From a virus: DNA of 64,000 bases. Position numbers and translations under genes: made by a program. Positions 3,628 through 54,974 of this stretch are shown here, piece after piece; positions within the stretch are counted from its first letter, which is position 1; each line of letters starts with the position of its first letter. The stretch is taken from IMG/VR virus record IMGVR_UViG_3300049001_000029, positions 1-64,000 of that record. One strand, given 5' to 3'. The notes under the pieces were generated by a model. The model searched no databases. It was not told the DNA's origin and worked only from the letters and a program-made list of their open reading frames with translations.

Positions 3628-4530
3628 CTAGAACTCCCCAAGCCCCAACTGGCGTGACTCCACCGCCGCTCTTTCCGACGCTGTCGCCGCTGTATACCGG
3701 TCCATCATCGATCGGGTGCTCCACCCCGCAACTGTCATCAGCCCCCCCTCCGAACCACCGGCCGCAAGCCAGCGCTGCGCTGACGTGTGCCGGGTCAGAT
3801 GCGGGTGGAAGTCCTTCACCCCCGCCTGCTCGGCGCGGCGTTTCAACGAGCAGTACAGCCCCGGATACCCGAACCCTTTCGAATCGGTTCCGAGCCACAA
3901 GGCACCTGACGACTCGGACAAGACGTGCTTGCGGCGCATCCGGATGTACCGGTCAAGCGCTTGACCGCACTGCGCGCTGAACGGCACCACGCGCCCCTTG
4001 CCGCCTTTGGAGCGGCGCACGGTGACGACACCTTCCCGAAGGTTCACATCCGAGAGTTTGATGTTGACCACGTCGGATGCCCGCAACGCCGACTCCAGCA
4101 TCAATCTCAAGATCGCGTTGTCCCGTACGTTCCGGAACGATCTTGACTTGCACGAATCCAGCAGGCGGCGACACTCCTCATCGGACAGACGCGCCACCAC
4201 CTTTTTGTCCAGCCGCACCGGTTTCAAACCCAACAGCTCGTCGTGGGGAATCTCCTGCTCCTCGGCCAGCCACGCCGAGAACAGGCACAGAGACTGCTGC
4301 CGCGTCAAGGCGGTCTTGGCCTGCCTACCACTGTCCAGCAGCTCCGCCACCCATCTGTTCACCGTGTCCCGGTTCAGCCGGGGCTCCACGTCGTTGGCGG
4401 CGCACCATGCCAAAAACTGTCTAAGCCCCGTGGTATACGACTTGAGCGTCTCCAGCGAGCGCCGGCTGGCCCGTAGGTGCAGCGACCAGGATTCGCCGAG
4501 GACAGCTAAGTCGGGATGGGGCACAGACAC
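3628..4530 (-). CDS. Tyrosine recombinase / phage integrase
   Basis: 300 residues, the size of XerC/D-type recombinases. N-terminal SAM-like core-binding domain (~1-105), then the catalytic domain: Arg150 (ESALRAS), Lys175/178 in the beta-hairpin RRSKGGKGR, His244-x-x-Arg247 (HLTRH), Trp270 in place of the second His (AGWSTRS), nucleophile Tyr279 (MDRYT). All expected residues are present, so it should be active. It would integrate and excise the element at att sites; I could not identify attP. It is transcribed away from the 400-base regulatory spacer at 4531-4930. Confidence 0.9.
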   Translation of the reverse strand: MSVPHPDLAVLGESWSLHLRASRRSLETLKSYTTGLRQFLAWCAANDVEPRLNRDTVNRWVAELLDSGRQAKTALTRQQSLCLFSAWLAEEQEIPHDELLGLKPVRLDKKVVARLSDEECRRLLDSCKSRSFRNVRDNAILRLMLESALRASDVVNIKLSDVNLREGVVTVRRSKGGKGRVVPFSAQCGQALDRYIRMRRKHVLSESSGALWLGTDSKGFGYPGLYCSLKRRAEQAGVKDFHPHLTRHTSAQRWLAAGGSEGGLMTVAGWSTRSMMDRYTAATASERAAVESRQLGLGEF

Positions 4531-8532: not shown

Positions 8533-9285
8533 ATGATGGGGCGCTCTCACAGCATGTGCGGGCTCACGGTCGGGGTCTGCGCCGCCGGCCTGCTCGATCA
8601 CGCTCCGTGGCCAGTGCGGCTGCTGCTCATCCCGGTGATGGGCGGCGCCGCACTACTCCCGGACATCGACCATCCCTCGTCGCGGGTCGCCCGGTCGCTG
8701 GGGTTCGTCACCAAGTTCATCGCGGTCGGGGTGGCGGCGTTGAGCCTCGCCGTCTACCACGCAACGCGCACCGAGGCCGACGTGGCGAACCGGCACTCGG
8801 GTCACCGAACCCTCACGCACACGGTGCCAGGGTCACTGTTCTTCGGTCTCATCGCCGGGGTCACCGTGTTGGCTCATCCGATAGCCGGCGCGGTGTTCCT
8901 GGCCCTACTGATCGGTCTCATGGCCCGAGGGTTCAAGACAGTTGGTACTGGGTTCACCCTCGCCGGTGGCGGTCTCGCCTGGTTCACCCTGACCCACTAT
9001 CCGGGCTGGTGGTGGTTGTGGCCCTCCGTTGTGACCCTAGGTTCACTGACCCACATCGCCGGGGACTGGGTCACGAACTCCGGTGTGCCGATCTACTGGC
9101 CGCTGCTGCGTGATGACCGTCGCTGGTCCCTGCACCACGCGCCCATGACCTTCGCCACCGGCAAGGACTTTGAGACCGAGGTAGTGACCCCCGTGCTCGC
9201 GGTGAGCCTGACCCTGGCGGGTGGGTTCGCGGCGGGTCTGCCGCAGCTGGTCCTGCACTCGTGGGCGGTGGCTCATGGCCACTAG
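8533..9285 (+). CDS. YdjM/DUF457-like membrane metal-dependent hydrolase
   Basis: 250 residues with about six membrane helices. Motifs of the YdjM family are present: PDIDHPSS near residue 40, GHRTLTH near 95, and HIAGDW near 175, which supply the His/Asp metal ligands. Family members are inner-membrane proteins of uncertain substrate, often on mobile elements. Starts at the ATGATG at 8533; overlaps the next gene by 11 bases. Confidence 0.75.
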   Translation: MMGRSHSMCGLTVGVCAAGLLDHAPWPVRLLLIPVMGGAALLPDIDHPSSRVARSLGFVTKFIAVGVAALSLAVYHATRTEADVANRHSGHRTLTHTVPGSLFFGLIAGVTVLAHPIAGAVFLALLIGLMARGFKTVGTGFTLAGGGLAWFTLTHYPGWWWLWPSVVTLGSLTHIAGDWVTNSGVPIYWPLLRDDRRWSLHHAPMTFATGKDFETEVVTPVLAVSLTLAGGFAAGLPQLVLHSWAVAHGH

Positions 9286-12717: not shown

Positions 12718-13938
12718 ATGGCCGATGATCTCGCCGGGTTGCCGATCGGCACCCGCATCCAGAGAATCCGTGAGCGCACCGGGAAAACTCGGCCTGTGTT
12801 GGGGGGTCTGGTCGGGAAGTCAGAAGCGTGGCTCAAAAACATCGAGTCCGGGCGGCGGCGGCCTCCTTCCACCGAGATGCTGATCAGGCTCGCGGAGGTG
12901 CTCGGCTTGTCGAGTCTGCGCGACCTGATCGGAGACGACACCGAGCTGAACCTTGACCGGCGGCCCATGCTCAACGTAGTGCCCCCTATCCGTGAGGCCA
13001 TCGAACACCACATACTCGCGTTTCGCACCGAGCCAGCGCCCGATATGGCCGCTCTGCACGAGCGTGTCGCGCACGCCTGGCGGACCTGGCACGCCTCGAT
13101 CCGGCCCCGCACTGACGCCGGGACGCTGTTACCAGCGCTGATCCGCGATACCCGGCGCGCCGCCCGGGTTCTCGACGGCGACCCCCGGCGCCAGGCGAAC
13201 ATCGCACTAGCCGGCGTTTACGCACTGTGTGAGCAGGTGTTGGCGTGGGTTGCTGAGGCGCCGCTGCTGTGGTTGGCCGCTGACCGGTGCATGGACGCCG
13301 CAACCCAGGCTGACGACCCGGAAACGCTCGCCGCCGCCGCGTGGGTGTTGGGCAACGTGTGGCGCTCGACCGGTCGGGAGGACGACGCGTGGAACCTGAC
13401 GCAGGATGCGTGCCGGCTGCTTGAGCCCCGCCTTGAGGCTGACGATCCGAGTGCGCGCGCGCTGTGGGGCTCCAACCAGCTGCATAGTGCTATCACGGCG
13501 GCCAGGTTGGGGCGTGAGGGTGACGCGTTGCGTTGCCTAGACCTGGCCGGTGGGATGGTCGAGCGGTTGCCCCGCGCCTACATGCATCCGTGGACGCTGT
13601 TCGGTGCGCCCAACGCGGCGTTGACCGCTGTGTCGGTGCAGGTGGACCTGCGCAAGTCTCGTGGCGCGTTGGACGCTGCCAGGCAGGTGGACCCTGACCA
13701 GTTGCACAGTATCGACCGCCGGGCGCGTCTCTGGCTGGAAACCGCGCGGGCCTACGCCGGCGCTCGGGACTACACCGGCGCCTTGCACGTCCTTGAGCGG
13801 GCGACGTCGGTGTCTGAGGAGTCGATGCGCTGCCATCCCCTGGCGCGGGGTTTGGCCAGCGAGCTCGTCACCTCGGGTGGTCCCTTGGTCGACCGTGAGT
13901 CTCGGGCTTTGGCTTCCCGTCTCGGGTTAGCGGTATAA
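12718..13938 (+). CDS. XRE regulator with TPR-like domain
   Basis: 406 residues. N-terminal HTH at ~10-60 (GKSEAWLKNIESGRRRPPST), then ~330 residues of helical repeats rich in Ala and Arg (NIALAGVYALCEQVLAWVAE, TAAAWVLGNVWRSTGRED-like units). This is the design of large XRE regulators on actinomycete conjugative elements, where the TPR part may sense a ligand or protein. Probably regulates this block; two strong palindromes lie at its stop codon. Confidence 0.8.
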   Translation: MADDLAGLPIGTRIQRIRERTGKTRPVLGGLVGKSEAWLKNIESGRRRPPSTEMLIRLAEVLGLSSLRDLIGDDTELNLDRRPMLNVVPPIREAIEHHILAFRTEPAPDMAALHERVAHAWRTWHASIRPRTDAGTLLPALIRDTRRAARVLDGDPRRQANIALAGVYALCEQVLAWVAEAPLLWLAADRCMDAATQADDPETLAAAAWVLGNVWRSTGREDDAWNLTQDACRLLEPRLEADDPSARALWGSNQLHSAITAARLGREGDALRCLDLAGGMVERLPRAYMHPWTLFGAPNAALTAVSVQVDLRKSRGALDAARQVDPDQLHSIDRRARLWLETARAYAGARDYTGALHVLERATSVSEESMRCHPLARGLASELVTSGGPLVDRESRALASRLGLAV

Positions 13939-48107: not shown

Positions 48108-48220
48108 GACCGGTCTTAAGAGACCATGCGACCGGTCTTAAGAGACCGGTGACCATGCGATCAGCGACCATGCGACCTGAGCTCAGTGACCGGTCATCAG
48201 TGATCAGTGACCTGTCGATC
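48108..48220. repeat. Iteron-like repeat cluster
   Basis: GACCGGTCTTAAGAGACC occurs at 48108 and 48130 (22-bp period), the second part of an inverted repeat ACCGGTCT-TAAG-AGACCGGT. GACCATGCGA occurs at 48122, 48151 and 48166. CAGTGA-type repeats follow (48184, 48197, 48204). It lies in the spacer between the leftward late genes and the rightward early region: candidate regulatory, partition or secondary origin site. Confidence 0.6.
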
Positions 48221-48231
48221 AGTGGATGGTG

Positions 48232-48267
48232 TAGACACCTTCAGATAGAAGGTGTACTGTCATACAC
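48232..48267 (+). promoter_or_regulatory. Leaderless promoter P1
   Basis: -35 TAGACA (48232-48237), 17 bp, -10 TACTGT (48255-48260), seven bases, ATG at 48268. The spacer holds ACACCTTC-AGATA-GAAGGTGT, a perfect inverted repeat. Member of the five-promoter family. Confidence 0.8.
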
Positions 48268-48474
48268 ATGACATCAAAGCGCCTCCCTGAGGTCACCAAG
48301 GCCATGTGCAACACTCGATCGACTCGTAACCAGTGGGCTGTCATGCGGGCGTGCGAGCGTTCAGCACGGGTCGCCAAGGACTGCGGCAACACTGAGTTCG
48401 CTGCCATGCAGGAAGACAACGCTGACCGGGCAGCGCGTGAGCTAAACATTCTACTCAAAGGTCGCAAGCACTGA
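48268..48474 (+). CDS. Small early protein, leaderless
   Basis: 68 residues, MTSKRLPEVTKAMCNTRSTR, helical and basic; no family recognised. ATG is seven bases after the P1 -10 box, so translation would start at the 5' end of the mRNA. First gene after the late/early boundary. Confidence 0.65.
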   Translation: MTSKRLPEVTKAMCNTRSTRNQWAVMRACERSARVAKDCGNTEFAAMQEDNADRAARELNILLKGRKH

Positions 48475-48489
48475 CCCAACAGCCACCAT

Positions 48490-48520
48490 GTGCCGGCTAC
48501 TCCATCCGAGTAGTCGGCAC
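48490..48520 (+). terminator. Hairpin between P1 and P2 genes
   Basis: GTGCCGGCTACTC paired with GAGTAGTCGGCAC around CATCC, one G-T mismatch. A nearly identical CTACTC-N5-GAGTAG-TCGGCACA unit lies before P3 (49275-49300), so the hairpin is part of a repeated cassette. Confidence 0.65.
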
Positions 48521-48529
48521 AGTTACGTG

Positions 48530-48565
48530 TGGACACCTTCACTACTGAGGTGTACTGTCATACAC
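48530..48565 (+). promoter_or_regulatory. Leaderless promoter P2
   Basis: -35 TGGACA (48530-48535), 17 bp, -10 TACTGT (48553-48558), seven bases, ATG at 48566. Same sequence CATACAC between -10 and ATG as P1. Confidence 0.8.
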
Positions 48566-48838
48566 ATGCCTCAGTCACCCGAGATGGATCAACTACTGGA
48601 GGAACTGAGCGCGATCGGCGTAGCGCTCGCCGACGCGGATGCGCTCAAGGAACGTCGTGGAGAGATCGTGCGCGCCTTGTTCAACCCAGCGGTCTCGGGC
48701 GTTCGTGCCCCGGTCACCGCGATGTGTGAGGCCCTCGGAGTGACCCGCGAGGCAATCTACAAGATCAGGGACGGTAAGTTGCTGGCACGTAAGCGCCAGC
48801 GCGACGCACGCGAGAAGCTACGCCGTCGAGGGGAATAG
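48566..48838 (+). CDS. HTH early protein (paralogue A)
   Basis: 90 residues from the leaderless ATG at 48566. Two helices, then a helix-turn-helix, VTAMCEALGVTREAIYKIRD, and a basic tail. The same plan occurs in the gene at 52572. It may regulate the promoter family it belongs to. Confidence 0.65.
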   Translation: MPQSPEMDQLLEELSAIGVALADADALKERRGEIVRALFNPAVSGVRAPVTAMCEALGVTREAIYKIRDGKLLARKRQRDAREKLRRRGE

Positions 48839-48860
48839 CTGCGTTTCTGTCAGCTTCGAG

Positions 48861-48904
48861 ACAACCGGTCCGGCGGCGACTCGCCTCGTTGCCGGACCGG
48901 TTGT
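48861..48904 (+). terminator. Hairpin terminator, 14-bp stem
   Basis: ACAACCGGTCCGGC (48861-48874) and its exact inverse (48891-48904). Ends the HTH gene transcript. Confidence 0.7.
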
Positions 48905-48926
48905 GCCCCGCGACATCCTGGCCTCG

Positions 48927-49070
48927 CTAACCTCGACCCAGTGACTGCGGTGACGCACCGTTCTGCCACCGCTCGGGGTGAAACCCTTCGTCGACCAGCC
49001 ACGCCTGCAACTGGGGAGCCAGCACCAAGTCTGGGTCGCCACTCTGCGGAGGCGGCGGGTAGGCCGGTGC
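48927..49070 (-). pseudogene. Remnant of a peptidase C-terminal domain
   Basis: Minus-strand frame without a start reads PAYPPPPQSGDPDLVLAPQL then QAWLVDEGFHPERWQNGASP to TAG. It resembles the tail of the papain-like gene at 52840 (PPVPPVPPGPDIDTDDAKLA, then ALQMWLTAKGFTASN). Probably what is left of a second copy. The rest of 48905-49300 shows no gene. Confidence 0.5.
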
Positions 49071-49307
49071 TCAGTGACCATGTAAGGCCGTGCGTGGTGT
49101 GCGTGCGTGTGCTCGCCGTGTGCGTGTGCATGCACCTGACGGCCTCGTGTGTACATATGGGTCGTGCGGAACAGCGTGAGGCAGCGTGAGAGCGCTCCCG
49201 TGCTGGCCTCTGAGAGCTCGTGTGAGCGCATGCGATTGCTTGGTGGGTGAGTTGTTGTGCCGTGCGTGTATGAGCTACTCCATTAGAGTAGTCGGCACAA
49301 TCATGTG

Positions 49308-49343
49308 TAGACACCTTCACCTAGGAGGTGTAGTGTCCTTCAC
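49308..49343 (+). promoter_or_regulatory. Leaderless promoter P3
   Basis: -35 TAGACA (49308-49313), 17 bp, -10 TAGTGT (49331-49336), seven bases, ATG at 49344. Preceded by the CTACTC/GAGTAG hairpin unit. Confidence 0.8.
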
Positions 49344-49394
49344 ATGACATCGGTGTTGGTCACACGGACCAGGAACTCAGGGAGCACACGATGA
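49344..49394 (+). CDS. 16-aa leader peptide
   Basis: Leaderless ATG of P3 reads MTSVLVTRTRNSGSTR; its TGA overlaps the next ATG as ATGA (CGATGACG). Translation of the leader probably drives the two coupled genes behind it. Confidence 0.55.
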   Translation: MTSVLVTRTRNSGSTR

Positions 49395-49594
49395 CGATCC
49401 TCTACACACCGAAGTGGGAAGACACCACTGAGTTGGTCGATGGCGACCTGTGCGACATCACCTTGTGTACTCGTGATGGTCGTAAGCGGTACTGCGGTCA
49501 GACAGCAGTGCGTGCAGCTGTCGATGTGGACGGCATTAGCACCCGCATCCTCTGCCAGAACCACGCCGACCTGTACTTCCCCAACCACCGATGA
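49391..49594 (+). CDS. Small Cys-rich protein before RuvB-like gene
   Basis: 67 residues with CDITLC, YCGQ and CQNH, a possible zinc ribbon. Coupled at both ends (ATGA). Not recognised; its tie to the RuvB-like ATPase suggests a partner protein. Confidence 0.6.
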   Translation: MTILYTPKWEDTTELVDGDLCDITLCTRDGRKRYCGQTAVRAAVDVDGISTRILCQNHADLYFPNHR

Positions 49595-50802
49595 CTCTGT
49601 ACCTGGACAGTGGCGATGACTGCCGCTACCGGATCGCTGATAGCGGCGGTCAGGTCACTGTCACTCCGCTCAACACCGCGTCACTGCACCGCTACAACCG
49701 AGAGGGACTGTCCACGATGACCGAGCTTGCCGACATCGCTAAGAAGTTGGGCATGCGTGTGAGTGCTACTGCGAAACCGAAACCTGCGGAGCAGGCGCCG
49801 GCGGTGAAGTCGAAGGCGATCCGCCCTGAGGACATCACGGAGATGGTGGGTCAGGACAAGGTGCGGGTGCAGATGATGCTCGAAGCACAGGCAGCGATGA
49901 CGGAGCGCGAGGAGGGCAGCGAGACCGCGATGCCGCCTCACACGTTGCTGTCCGGTCCGCGTGGTACCGGTAAGACGACGCTAGCCAAGATCACAGCGTC
50001 GCTGATCGGTGGCCGGCTGGTTGAGACCACCGCATCGGCTGTGTCCGAGGTGAAGGTGTTGGCCCGCAAGCTGGGCACGCTTGAGGACAACGACGTCCTG
50101 TTCATCGACGAAATCCACGGTCTGCCACGGACAGCCCAGGAGCTGCTGTACACGGCGATGGAAGACGGCGTGATCTCGGTCAAGGCCGGTGAGGGTGCCG
50201 ACGTCAAGACCATCAACGTCCAGTTGAAGCGGTTCGTACTGGTCGGTGCAACCACGATCCTTGGTAAGCTGGAAGGTCCGATGGTGTCCCGGTTCGGCCT
50301 GGTCGGGAAACTCACCTACTACCGCGACGACGAGCTGCTGACCATCATCACGCGAGCCGCTGAAAAGCGCCGTACCAAGATCGACGACGACGCTGCTAGC
50401 GCACTGGCGGTCAGGTCGAAAGGTACGCCCAGAATCGCTCTGAGCCTGCTGGCCAAGTGCCGTGCGTACGTCATCGGGATGAACCGCACCAGCGACGTAC
50501 CGATCACGCTGCCCGATGTGGACTCGACGCTAGCGCTGCACGGTGTCGACGAGCTCGGCCTGGAATCCGATGAGCGCGCCGTACTCGATGCGTTGTGTTC
50601 GCCTGTGAATGCTGGCCGGCCGATGGGTGTGAAGAACGTCGCGGCGGTGACCGGGATGGATGAGTCGACGGTGGAGCAGATCGAGCCGCTGTTGCTGCGG
50701 CTTGCGCTGATGGTTCGCACGAGTCGTGGTCGCAAGGCGACGAAGAGCGGCTACGTGCACATGAAGCTGGAGCCGCCGGTGGATGCTGGTATCGAGATGT
50801 AA
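49591..50802 (+). CDS. RuvB-like Holliday-junction ATPase
   Basis: 403 residues (or 361 from ATG 49717, which also has AGAGGGA upstream). Clear AAA+ RuvB pattern: EMVGQDKVRVQMMLEAQAAM, Walker A GPRGTGKT (122-129), Walker B VLFIDEIHGL (~169-178), sensor 1 GATT (219-222), Arg finger in VSRFGLVG (R234), sensor 2 GTPRIA (278-283), then the RuvB winged-helix end. The ~40-residue N-terminal extension is unusual. RuvB pumps branch migration with RuvA; no RuvA or RuvC gene is visible here. Rare in phages. Confidence 0.85.
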   Translation: MTLYLDSGDDCRYRIADSGGQVTVTPLNTASLHRYNREGLSTMTELADIAKKLGMRVSATAKPKPAEQAPAVKSKAIRPEDITEMVGQDKVRVQMMLEAQAAMTEREEGSETAMPPHTLLSGPRGTGKTTLAKITASLIGGRLVETTASAVSEVKVLARKLGTLEDNDVLFIDEIHGLPRTAQELLYTAMEDGVISVKAGEGADVKTINVQLKRFVLVGATTILGKLEGPMVSRFGLVGKLTYYRDDELLTIITRAAEKRRTKIDDDAASALAVRSKGTPRIALSLLAKCRAYVIGMNRTSDVPITLPDVDSTLALHGVDELGLESDERAVLDALCSPVNAGRPMGVKNVAAVTGMDESTVEQIEPLLLRLALMVRTSRGRKATKSGYVHMKLEPPVDAGIEM

Positions 50803-50805
50803 GCG

Positions 50806-50844
50806 AGAACCCGCCCAGTGCCAAACTGGGCGGGTTCTTCTCTT
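50806..50844 (+). terminator. Rho-independent terminator
   Basis: AGAACCCGCCCAGT-gccaa-ACTGGGCGGGTTCT, 14-bp perfect stem, then TCTCTT. Ends the RuvB-like operon. Confidence 0.85.
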
Positions 50845-50853
50845 GTCAGGGTG

Positions 50854-50889
50854 TAGACGTCTTCGCTACTGGGGTGTATCGTCCTTCAT
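50854..50889 (+). promoter_or_regulatory. Leaderless promoter P4
   Basis: -35 TAGACG (50854-50859), 17 bp, -10 TATCGT (50877-50882), seven bases, ATG at 50890. Most diverged member; its inverted repeat is weak. Confidence 0.75.
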
Positions 50890-51111
50890 ATGACGAAGAA
50901 TGAGATCGCAGCCGAGTTCATCACTATGGTTAACGATACACTCTTCATTACTCACGACTGGGAGATCAGCGTAGAGACTCACTTCGGTGAATGGATGGTC
51001 GCGGACCGTGGCAAAAACGTGACACTGTTCAGCGATCTAGACGAAGCTCTCCTCTGGGCGATCAAGTTCCACAACGGTGAAGCGCGAGTCCGCAACGGTC
51101 GTCCCTGCTGA
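50890..51111 (+). CDS. Small early protein, leaderless
   Basis: 73 residues, MTKNEIAAEFITMVNDTLFI, mixed alpha/beta with LFSDLDEALLWAIKFHNGEA. Not recognised. Seven bases after P4's -10 box. Confidence 0.65.
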   Translation: MTKNEIAAEFITMVNDTLFITHDWEISVETHFGEWMVADRGKNVTLFSDLDEALLWAIKFHNGEARVRNGRPC

Positions 51112-51125
51112 AGCGACTACAAGGC

Positions 51126-51158
51126 AACAACCCCCGACATGGTGTATCGGGGGTTGTT
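51126..51158 (+). terminator. Rho-independent terminator
   Basis: AACAACCCCCGA paired with TCGGGGGTTGTT around a 9-base loop, between two convergent genes; serves both. Confidence 0.75.
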
Positions 51159-51482
51159 CTATGTCTTGGCGCCCTTCTTCTGGTTGCACGGTAGGCACAG
51201 GATCGTCAGGTTGCTGGGTTCGTGCATGAGGTGCGGCGCAACCGAACGCGGCACGATGTGATCGAGGCTGAGCCGTCCTGGTTCGACGGCGTGTGCGTCT
51301 CGTTGGTAGCCGGGACACCACCAGCCGTGCTGTGCAACCCAGGTGTCGATGAGTGTGCGGCGTAGTCGGTCGTGTGTGCGGTCGAGGCCGCGTTTGTGCC
51401 GGCTGGGCTGTTGTGGTGCGCATGCTCGGCAGCGGGTTTGGGTCGTAGGCTGGCCGCATTTTAGGCAGGGTTTGTTTGCCAT
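51159..51482 (-). CDS. HNH endonuclease
   Basis: 107 residues from the ATG at 51482 (MANKPCLKCGQPTTQTRCRA). N-terminal CxxC...CxxC zinc site, then the HNH core LSLDHIVPRSVA ... EPSNLTILCLPCNQKKG. Small phage HNH enzymes often assist packaging or act as homing nucleases. It diverges from P5, whose -35 is only six bases from this start. Confidence 0.8.
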   Translation of the reverse strand: MANKPCLKCGQPTTQTRCRACAPQQPSRHKRGLDRTHDRLRRTLIDTWVAQHGWWCPGYQRDAHAVEPGRLSLDHIVPRSVAPHLMHEPSNLTILCLPCNQKKGAKT

Positions 51483-51487
51483 GGGTG

Positions 51488-51523
51488 TAGACACCTTCAC
51501 ATGACTGGTGTAGTGTCCTTCAC
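51488..51523 (+). promoter_or_regulatory. Leaderless promoter P5
   Basis: -35 TAGACA (51488-51493), 17 bp, -10 TAGTGT (51511-51516), seven bases, ATG at 51524. Confidence 0.8.
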
Positions 51524-51676
51524 ATGACATACGGACTGTGCGAGATCGGAATGGAACGCTACTGTGAAATCTGGGGCGAGAAGGCCATCAACCCCTACAT
51601 CGCGGAGATCGACGGTGAAGAGGTCGAGCAAGTTATCTGCTCACGCTGCTACGACGAACTGTGCAACGACATCTGA
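51524..51676 (+). CDS. 50-aa Cys-rich protein, leaderless
   Basis: Starts MTYGLCEIGMERYCEIWGEK and ends with ICSRCYDELCND: five or six Cys in two groups, probably zinc-binding, acidic overall. Identified by the P5 start context. No family recognised; it resembles the 49391 protein in style. Confidence 0.65.
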   Translation: MTYGLCEIGMERYCEIWGEKAINPYIAEIDGEEVEQVICSRCYDELCNDI

Positions 51677-51759: not shown

Positions 51760-52554
51760 ATGCTCAATGCCACATGGACCGGCACGATCAGTTTCGGCCT
51801 GGTGTCAATCCCCGTCAAACTGTTCGCCGCCACCGAAGATCACGGCGTTGAGCTGCACCGTAGCCACGAGACATGCATGGTCGGTGAATACGGCGACGCT
51901 GCTCACCGCGTGAGCCAGCGCATGGTGTGCAAGGACTGCGAAGAGGTTGTACCGTACAGCGACCTGGGCAGTGTGTTCGAGGACAGCGACGGAACCACCG
52001 TGCCCCTGACCAAGGCCGAGCTCGACGGCCTGCCGAACACCAAGACCAAGACCATCGACCTGTGCGAGTTCGTTGACCCTGACGAGATCAATCCGCTCCG
52101 GTTGGGCAAGCCCTACTACGTGCGACCCAACCTCGGAACATTCAAGTCGCCGAAGGCGAACCCCTCGTACGAGCTGTTCGTGCGCACCCTACAGCAGACC
52201 GGTAAGGCTGCGATCGGCTCGCTGGTGATGCGGTCACGAGAGAACCTGGTGGCCATCACCGTGCATGACGGCATGCTGGTGGCCCGTGTGGTCTTGTGGG
52301 CCGACGAGCTCCGTGTGCCGGAGTTCAGTGAGCCCACCGTGCCGGCGACAAGCGTGACCGAGGCTGAGGTGGCGATGGCGGTGAACCTGGTCGACGCGAT
52401 GACCGTCAAATGGGATGTGACGGCGCATGTGGACCGCCGGGACGTGGCGTTGCGGGACCTGATCACCTCGAAGCAGGCACCGGTGGTGGCGTCGCGGCCT
52501 GACGCCCAGATCATCGACCTGTTTGCGCGGGTCAACGCGTCTGTAGCGGGGTGA
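51760..52554 (+). CDS. ku: Ku protein (NHEJ)
   Basis: 264 residues from the ATG at 51760 with AAGGAGAAA upstream. Starts LNATWTGTISFGLVSIPVKL, the hallmark opening of bacterial Ku, and continues with KDCEEVVPYSDLGSVFEDSD, VDPDEINPLRLGKPYYVRPN and MAVNLVDAMTVKWDVTAHVD. Ku rings thread on DNA ends and recruit LigD. Mycobacteriophages Omega and Corndog also encode Ku, which with host LigD closes their short cohesive ends. No ligase gene is visible here, so host LigD is probably used. Confidence 0.9.
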   Translation: MLNATWTGTISFGLVSIPVKLFAATEDHGVELHRSHETCMVGEYGDAAHRVSQRMVCKDCEEVVPYSDLGSVFEDSDGTTVPLTKAELDGLPNTKTKTIDLCEFVDPDEINPLRLGKPYYVRPNLGTFKSPKANPSYELFVRTLQQTGKAAIGSLVMRSRENLVAITVHDGMLVARVVLWADELRVPEFSEPTVPATSVTEAEVAMAVNLVDAMTVKWDVTAHVDRRDVALRDLITSKQAPVVASRPDAQIIDLFARVNASVAG

Positions 52555-52571
52555 GGTATATGCTACTTCAC

Positions 52572-52835
52572 ATGCCACGCCACCAGGATGACGCTGAGCG
52601 CCGTGACGCCCTGATCGCCGCACTAAACGCCGCGCAAGGCGAAGTCATTACCACGAGAAACGCACTCGCAAAGGCGATGACTGAACGGAAAACGATCGTG
52701 CAAGAGTTGTTCAGACTCTACGATCCGGCGCCGATCAGAGCGATGGAAGAGGCCACCCAGATGGACAAGGGCCGGTTGTATCAGATCCGGGATAACCGGC
52801 ACGGCAACGAAGGTAGCCGTCGCCGTGCCGGTTGA
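52572..52835 (+). CDS. HTH early protein (paralogue B)
   Basis: 87 residues, MPRHQDDAERRDALIAALNA, then TRNALAKAMTERKTIVQELF and an HTH-like end (RAMEEATQMDKGRLYQIRDN). Same helix plan and ending as the 48566 protein. TATGCT seven bases before the ATG (52559-52564) repeats the leaderless spacing, though the -35 is not convincing. Confidence 0.65.
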   Translation: MPRHQDDAERRDALIAALNAAQGEVITTRNALAKAMTERKTIVQELFRLYDPAPIRAMEEATQMDKGRLYQIRDNRHGNEGSRRRAG

Positions 52836-54739: not shown

Positions 54740-54776
54740 TTGAGAAGTCAGACAAAGTGCTGGTAGAGTACTTCTT
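54740..54776 (+). promoter_or_regulatory. Related leaderless promoter
   Basis: -35 TTGAGA (54740-54745), 18 bp, -10 TAGAGT (54764-54769), seven bases, ATG at 54777. Same -10 to ATG distance as P1-P5 but without their operator. Confidence 0.55.
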
Positions 54777-54974
54777 ATGACGCAGACGACGCAGAGCGAA
54801 ACCGCCGCCCCGACATACACGATTACCCGCGAGCGTGTTACCTGGATTCGTGACGGAAAACTTGGCAGGTCGCGTATCACGCACCCTGTTGTGTGGCTTG
54901 TTGCCGAAAATGGCAAGGACATCAAATACTTCGACACAAAGGGTGACGCACAGGAGTGGATTAAGGCCCAGTAG
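54777..54974 (+). CDS. Small protein (65 aa), leaderless
   Basis: MTQTTQSETAAPTYTITRER then beta-rich (ITHPVVWLVAENGKDIKYFD). No family recognised. Start seven bases after a -10 box. Confidence 0.6.
   Translation: MTQTTQSETAAPTYTITRERVTWIRDGKLGRSRITHPVVWLVAENGKDIKYFDTKGDAQEWIKAQ

Follow-up and report, generated by a model that had tools for sequence, protein, structure and literature searches.

Repeated promoter elements at a fixed distance from the start codons of small actinophage genes point to leaderless messages

Why do several small reading frames in one block of a phage genome begin at exactly the same distance behind almost the same short sequence? The sequences in question, which we call P1 to P5, lie at 48226-51526 of the window, the 64,000-nucleotide stretch analysed here, which is part of a 69,151-base IMG/VR virus contig (IMGVR_UViG_3300049001_000029). 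Coordinates are window positions, and L and G numbers are labels of related contigs. All five elements share one geometry, namely a TAGACA-like -35 hexamer, a spacer of 17 bp, a TANNNT -10 hexamer, 7 bp and then ATG. We propose with good confidence that one phage promoter is present here in five copies, P1-P5, that messages from it would start at the ATG and so have no leader, and that each copy with its gene would form a cartridge bounded by hairpins.

Five elements and their distance to the start codon

All five elements are on the + strand. P1 (48226-48270) has TAGACA at 48232, TACTGT at 48255 and ATG at 48268, and is followed by a gene for a 68-amino-acid (aa) protein. P2 (48524-48568; TGGACA at 48530, TACTGT at 48553, ATG at 48566) precedes a gene for a 90-aa helix-turn-helix (HTH) protein, and P3 (49302-49346; TAGACA at 49308, TAGTGT at 49331, ATG at 49344) opens a reading frame of 16 codons. 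P4 (50848-50892), the most diverged copy, has TAGACG at 50854, TATCGT at 50877 and ATG at 50890, and stands before a 73-aa gene. P5 (51482-51526; TAGACA at 51488, TAGTGT at 51511, ATG at 51524) is divergent from an HNH gene and precedes a 50-aa Cys-rich gene. The first-pass annotation of this DNA had proposed five such elements with a spacer of 17 and a distance of 7, and every one of them is where it was placed. Their -35 hexamers match TTGACA at four to five of six bases.

A 39-nt consensus allowing at most one mismatch matched four of the five elements and no other site, with zero matches expected from 100 shuffles. With a weight matrix built from P1-P5, the elements themselves scored 61-70 bits; the next best site in the 69 kb scored 9.9 bits and fell inside the same elements, so the contig holds no sixth full copy. 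The shorter pattern TANNNT-N7-ATG occurred seven times on the + strand between 48000 and 55200 (shuffle mean 0.29, maximum 2) and six times when a -35 was also required (shuffle mean 0.04, maximum 1). Two of these sites are the weaker relatives that had been noticed earlier at 52559 and 54740, and both are real as instances of the pattern. One of them (52553-52574, +; TATGCT at 52559, then N7 and ATG at 52572) lacks a good -35 and precedes the HTH gene that follows the Ku gene; 52553 is also the additional match obtained when the right half of the P1-P5 element was searched alone. The other (54740-54779, +) is a promoter unrelated in its letters but of the same geometry, TTGAGA-N18-TAGAGT-N7-ATG with the ATG at 54777, before a 65-aa gene.

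To examine the distance itself, we took the early regions of the window phage together with those of six relatives and counted TANNNT-N(k)-ATG at the starts of open reading frames for every k between 0 and 20. The pooled profile had 23 cases at k=7 and no more than two at any other k. When a -35 was required, k=7 was found six times in the window, three times each in L007 and L071, twice in L056 and four times in L057, and k=8 in none of them. Many of the 23 cases are copies within one phage, which leaves about nine independent elements; the probability that about nine independent elements all fall on one of 21 distances is about 3e-11.

The starts behind these elements also lack Shine-Dalgarno (SD) pairing. 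Computed between positions -16 to -4 and the 16S tail, the median pairing energy was -2.4 kcal/mol for 20 leaderless candidates and -8.3 kcal/mol for 24 neighbouring genes (P=1.7e-8), with random 13-mers at -3.5. A C stands at -1 in 22 of 24 sites, giving a C|A junction at the ATG, and a C before the first A is a usual junction at bacterial transcription starts. The third base after TANNNT, at -5, is a T in 24/24 sites from all lineages although the bases around it vary, and we know of no promoter rule that explains it. Because the distance from the -10 to the ATG is kept while promoter sequences differ, the SD is missing and the junction is C|A, the earlier proposal that these are leaderless promoters is strongly supported as far as sequence goes, and the mRNAs from P1-P5 very probably begin at the ATG.

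Conservation of the geometry in related phages

A search of IMG/VR for the strict element returned only L005 (the same as L007). This relative has two copies of P1, each identical to it at 39/39 positions and each with another gene behind it, together with one P5-like element and no P3. Searches with the terminase and the RuvB-like protein gave L014/L071, L055, L056, L057 and L058. In L014, L056 and L057 the block is syntenic with that of the window, running through the terminase-side gene, small genes, the RuvB-like gene, HNH, Ku and the small HTH gene, and each of these phages has an element of its own. The element of the window and L007 is GTGTANTGTCNTNCACATG; that of L014/L071 is GTAAGCTNCTGTGCATGAC, which at start codons in L014 reads GTAAGCTNCTGTGC-ATGAC. 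In L056 it is TTGCGC-N17-TACNGTAGTAGNCATG (with the start, TTGCGC-N17-TACNGTAGTAGNC-ATG) and in L057 it is TTGAC..GTCTAGNGTTATGNACATG (with the start, TTGAC-N17/18-TAGNGTTATGNAC-ATG). Despite the different letters, TANNNT stands 7 bp before the ATG in the elements of L014, L056 and L057. Four lineages each have a different repeated element of their own and all keep the 7, which suggests selection visible on the geometry and not on the letters. The first-pass annotation had named a lack of conserved spacing in relatives as one finding that would count against its proposal, and the spacing is conserved.

After the rule of TANNNT-N7-ATG with T at -5 had been recorded, we fetched a held-out relative, L129 (a 69-kb contig from a Nocardioides metagenome bin), via a neighbouring gene. 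All three TANNNT-N7-ATG sites on its early strand have a -35 at 17-18 bp and T at -5. Because L057 and L129 are close kin, the result repeats the finding in one lineage more than it adds another. At about 8005-8065 of L129 (minus strand), a further, fourth member of the promoter family leads into ATCACC where the ATG would be expected; its start codon has apparently been lost and the promoter kept.

Other searches yielded little. A terminase search of bacterial genomes found nothing, and a Ku search in viral contigs found only the L014 contig and one unrelated contig. A search of viral contigs with the terminase neighbour was unusable as a test because most of the contigs found stop just before the P1 region. 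Most of L078-L087 end 66-641 bp before the terminase-side gene that adjoins P1, as if the end of a linear genome (cos) separated that gene from P1. A repeat array (GACCGGTCTTAAGAGACC, ATCAGTGACCGGTCATCAGTGATCAGTG) directly precedes the first early promoter in the window (48108-48225), and occurs upstream of both P1 copies in L007, at 8410-8510 in L057 and at 8900-9020 (minus strand) in L129. The phages with the array are only about 41% alike in their RuvB-like protein, and the array is a candidate origin, operator array or packaging region.

Transcription units and a possible mechanism

Hairpins on the + strand separate these units. A 14-bp hairpin (48489-48521, z -6.5) lies between the P1 gene and P2, a 19-bp hairpin (48861-48904, z -6.5) after the P2 gene and a 15-bp hairpin (50805-50839, z -6.2) between the RuvB-like gene and P4; another follows the P4 gene (51126-51158, z -4.1). 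The hairpin just upstream of P3 (49266-49298, z -2.8) is a partial copy of the one before P2. Hairpins likewise precede promoters in L057 and L014, and the strong ones are probably terminators of small units.

The gene behind a given promoter is not constant. A promoter at the position of P5 is present in L007 (6546), L014 (2899, minus strand), L057 (11761) and L129, and the protein encoded there is 50 aa in the window, 26 aa in L007, 86 aa in L014, 133 aa in L057 and 73 aa in L129. P3 is absent before the same operon in L005. Because L005 has the same downstream sequence as that behind P3, but with a small gene and a hairpin in between, the comparison suggests that P3, whose short frame the first-pass annotation had read as a leader peptide, is a remnant cassette whose gene was deleted. 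From their sequences, the elements and their genes look like exchangeable promoter cartridges of small transcription units. At 4070-4640 of L007, a whole cassette (promoter, small gene, hairpin and SD stretch) is duplicated in tandem, with two different genes in identical frames.

We infer a mechanism that would account for the promoter-like elements, their fixed distance to the ATG, the missing SD, the turnover of sequence with the distance kept, the different genes behind the same promoter and the hairpins. The housekeeping RNA polymerase of the host, of the SigA type (TTGACA-like -35, 16-18 bp, TANNNT -10), would read P1-P5, and RNA would start on the A of the ATG. The mRNAs would be leaderless because the RNA start would be that same A, and 70S ribosomes would bind the 5'-terminal AUG and translate the message. 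Transcription of each unit would end at its hairpin, and the promoter would stay while the gene behind it is replaced. Early timing of the block is plausible from the gene neighbourhood, which includes the RuvB-like AAA protein, HNH and Ku and, in L056, a sliding-clamp-like gene. We also consider, as a minor possibility that we think unlikely, that a dedicated actinophage programme is what the T at -5, the fixed 7 nt and the C|A junction reflect. The early, independently transcribed small genes of these phages would then all be leaderless to suit a special state of host translation, such as that soon after entry or that under stress; each lineage would have replaced the promoter, and selection would have kept the leaderless geometry.

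A phage protein may control the elements, given the letters conserved outside the hexamers (GTG before and CCTTCA after the -35, GTG before the -10 and the T at -5 after it) and the small HTH gene after Ku. The HTH proteins at 48566 and 52572 and the regulator at 12718-13938 are candidates only. An inverted repeat, ACACCT/AGGTGT, had been reported in the spacer and taken to suggest a common repressor. The repeat is perfect over 8 bp only in P1, shortens to 6 bp in P2 and P3 and to 5 bp in P5, and is lost in P4; with this decay across the five copies, and a weak dyad signal across lineages, a common repressor is conjectural.

Alternative explanations and known systems

Several observations weigh against the leaderless reading. 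An AGG or GGG about 15 nt from the ATG in P1-P4 could serve as a weak SD if the transcript began further upstream. A generic promoter scan of the window found only the site at 54740, and the -35 boxes in the window are non-consensus. None of the hairpins fits a terminator with a U-tract, although actinobacterial terminators often have none. L055, which is 64% identical in its RuvB-like protein, starts these genes with an SD and is the only one of the RuvB relatives to lack the elements altogether; the more distant terminase relatives G004, G005 and G006 (about 50% identity) have no repeated leaderless family either.

It could be argued that the elements are mainly operators, placed at start codons to bind a repressor or activator made by the phage, and that transcription starts elsewhere. 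Their conservation does extend past the -35 and -10, their halves are direct repeats 23 bp apart (GTGTAGACACCTTCA / GTGTAGTGTCCTTCA), the 8-bp inverted repeat of P1 is perfect, and several lineages have a 16-bp imperfect dyad over the -10. We rejected this cross-lineage dyad as evidence for an operator: complementarity within sites (3.7 of 6) is barely above that between families (3.3 of 6). Relatives keep the -35, spacer, -10 and 7-nt distance while the letters of a would-be operator change, the inverted repeat is lost in P4, and an operator alone leaves the fixed distance to the ATG and the missing SD unexplained. We therefore find a purely operator role improbable; that the elements are both promoter and operator is possible. 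Another account would hold that the likeness comes from recent duplication, with the elements spread by recombination of gene cassettes, and not from function. The tandem cassette duplication in L005, with its identical elements, speaks for copying, as does the 82% likeness of P2 and P3 over 73 nt, upstream hairpin included. The bases that vary among P1-P5 are those in the middle of the spacer, though, and the conserved ones are at promoter positions. Copying cannot account for the geometry because the elements of L014, L056 and L057 are unrelated and yet share it. Duplication is compatible with copies of one leaderless promoter as their mode of spread, and as a replacement for function it seems to us very improbable.

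The closest described system is that of the cluster K mycobacteriophages, which have start-associated sequences (SAS) and extended start-associated sequences (ESAS). Cluster K phages, TM4, Pixie and Adephagia among them, have about seven ESAS per genome, of 46-47 bp, with SigA-like hexamers 17-18 bp apart and an inverted repeat (PMC3203893, PMC11373665, PMC12699233), and the authors propose a regulator or repressor of unknown identity (PMC3203893, PMC11373665). The window elements resemble ESAS in being several near-identical intergenic copies before small genes, with SigA-like -35 and -10 hexamers 17-18 bp apart; an inverted repeat is shared less clearly, being 8 bp in P1, shorter in P2, P3 and P5 and absent from P4. 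The earlier statement that no regulon of this architecture had been described in a phage was thus too strong, since ESAS are repeated SigA-like promoters with an inverted repeat beside start codons, although leadered (PMC3203893, PMC11373665). ESAS transcripts are leadered because an ESAS is usually followed by a SAS with AGGAG, whereas the window element ends at the ATG and has no SAS. Yasnaya_Polyana, a K4 phage, has the right repeat directly against the start codon in 3/7 cases (PMC12699233), and for this reason K4 phages may have a leaderless version of ESAS too. It is extremely improbable, in our view, that P1-P5 are simply a member of the cluster K system. The plan is the same (a repeated SigA-like promoter of about 40-47 bp, with an inverted repeat over the -35 and -10, beside the starts of small genes), and the -10 of the Adephagia ESAS is TACTGT (PMC11373665). 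The SAS, GGGATAGGAGCCC, has no occurrence in the window within two mismatches, however, the inverted-repeat sequence is unlike that of Adephagia, and the Adephagia elements stand further from the start, with an SD after them. A DNA search of phage records, run with 48-53 kb for distant and 40-64 kb for near matches, found no match.

Other systems share part of the arrangement. In the Streptomyces phage phiC31, near-identical GGGTTGCCGACTCCCTTAC-like sequences are repeated before many early genes and serve as its early promoters, under repressor control; there the element is followed by a leader with an SD, which the window elements lack. A phage moron is likewise a small gene that comes with a promoter and a hairpin and is exchanged between relatives, but morons are single insertions, and here several units with copies of one promoter stand side by side. 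Phage and prophage regulators with leaderless messages include lambda cI and dicA, racR and ymfK (PMC4681348). These are also phage-encoded mRNAs that start at AUG, but they are single genes and not a repeated family for many small genes. Leaderless translation is common in this type of host, as in S. coelicolor with 264 mRNAs whose leaders are shorter than 10 nt (PMC4681348), but those genes do not follow copies of one element. Set against the open-access literature, a repeated leaderless family that serves many small genes and keeps its geometry while its sequence turns over would be new.

Leaderless phage messages are known mostly from single regulator genes; in this actinophage group they would come from an entire block of small early genes. 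The elements would offer a clean natural test of what a leaderless start requires, including the unexplained T at -5. They would help to locate small phage genes, and to place their starts correctly, where gene callers that rely on the SD overlook them, and would supply actinobacterial genetics with compact leaderless promoters. They also suggest that the cluster K ESAS may be one form of a more widespread use of promoter cartridges.

Genes of the block and the phage

The + strand block at 48.2-52.8 kb sits between two leftward blocks, one of which holds the packaging and structural genes. The 68-aa protein behind P1 (48268-48474) and the 73-aa protein behind P4 (50890-51111) have no family match. 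The 90-aa HTH protein behind P2 (48566-48838) is a paralogue of the small HTH-like protein encoded after Ku (52572-52835; E 2e-5). The 16-codon frame behind P3 (49344-49394) ends in a TGA that overlaps the next start codon as ATGA; the gene starting there (49391-49594) encodes a 67-aa protein, has an SD and is the first of the operon of the RuvB-like AAA+ protein (49591-50802, 403 aa; Pfam RuvB_N, 8e-40). The HNH endonuclease gene divergent from P5 (51159-51482, minus strand) had its start set by comparison with L007, and the 50-aa Cys-rich protein behind P5 is encoded at 51524-51676. The Ku-like DNA end-binding protein (51760-52554; Pfam Ku, 2e-35) has an SD start. The HTH gene that follows it, a candidate regulator, keeps this position in several related phages as well as in the window phage, and its start is also TANNNT-N7-ATG in L056, L057 and L129.

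Protein kinship is distant and confined to actinophages (Ku, 37% to mycobacteriophages; terminase, 37% to Streptomyces phage Kromp), and the window phage is probably a virus of soil actinobacteria. It is probably temperate because a tyrosine integrase (3628-4530, minus strand) and a phage-type transcriptional regulator (phrog_5823; 12718-13938, +) are on the contig, towards its far end. By eye, two relatives have further genes within the block: at 8993-12830 of L056, a cation-efflux-like gene and a DnaN-like sliding clamp lie between leaderless units, and at 11150-11300 of L057, two tRNA-like genes lie between the RuvB-like gene and HNH.

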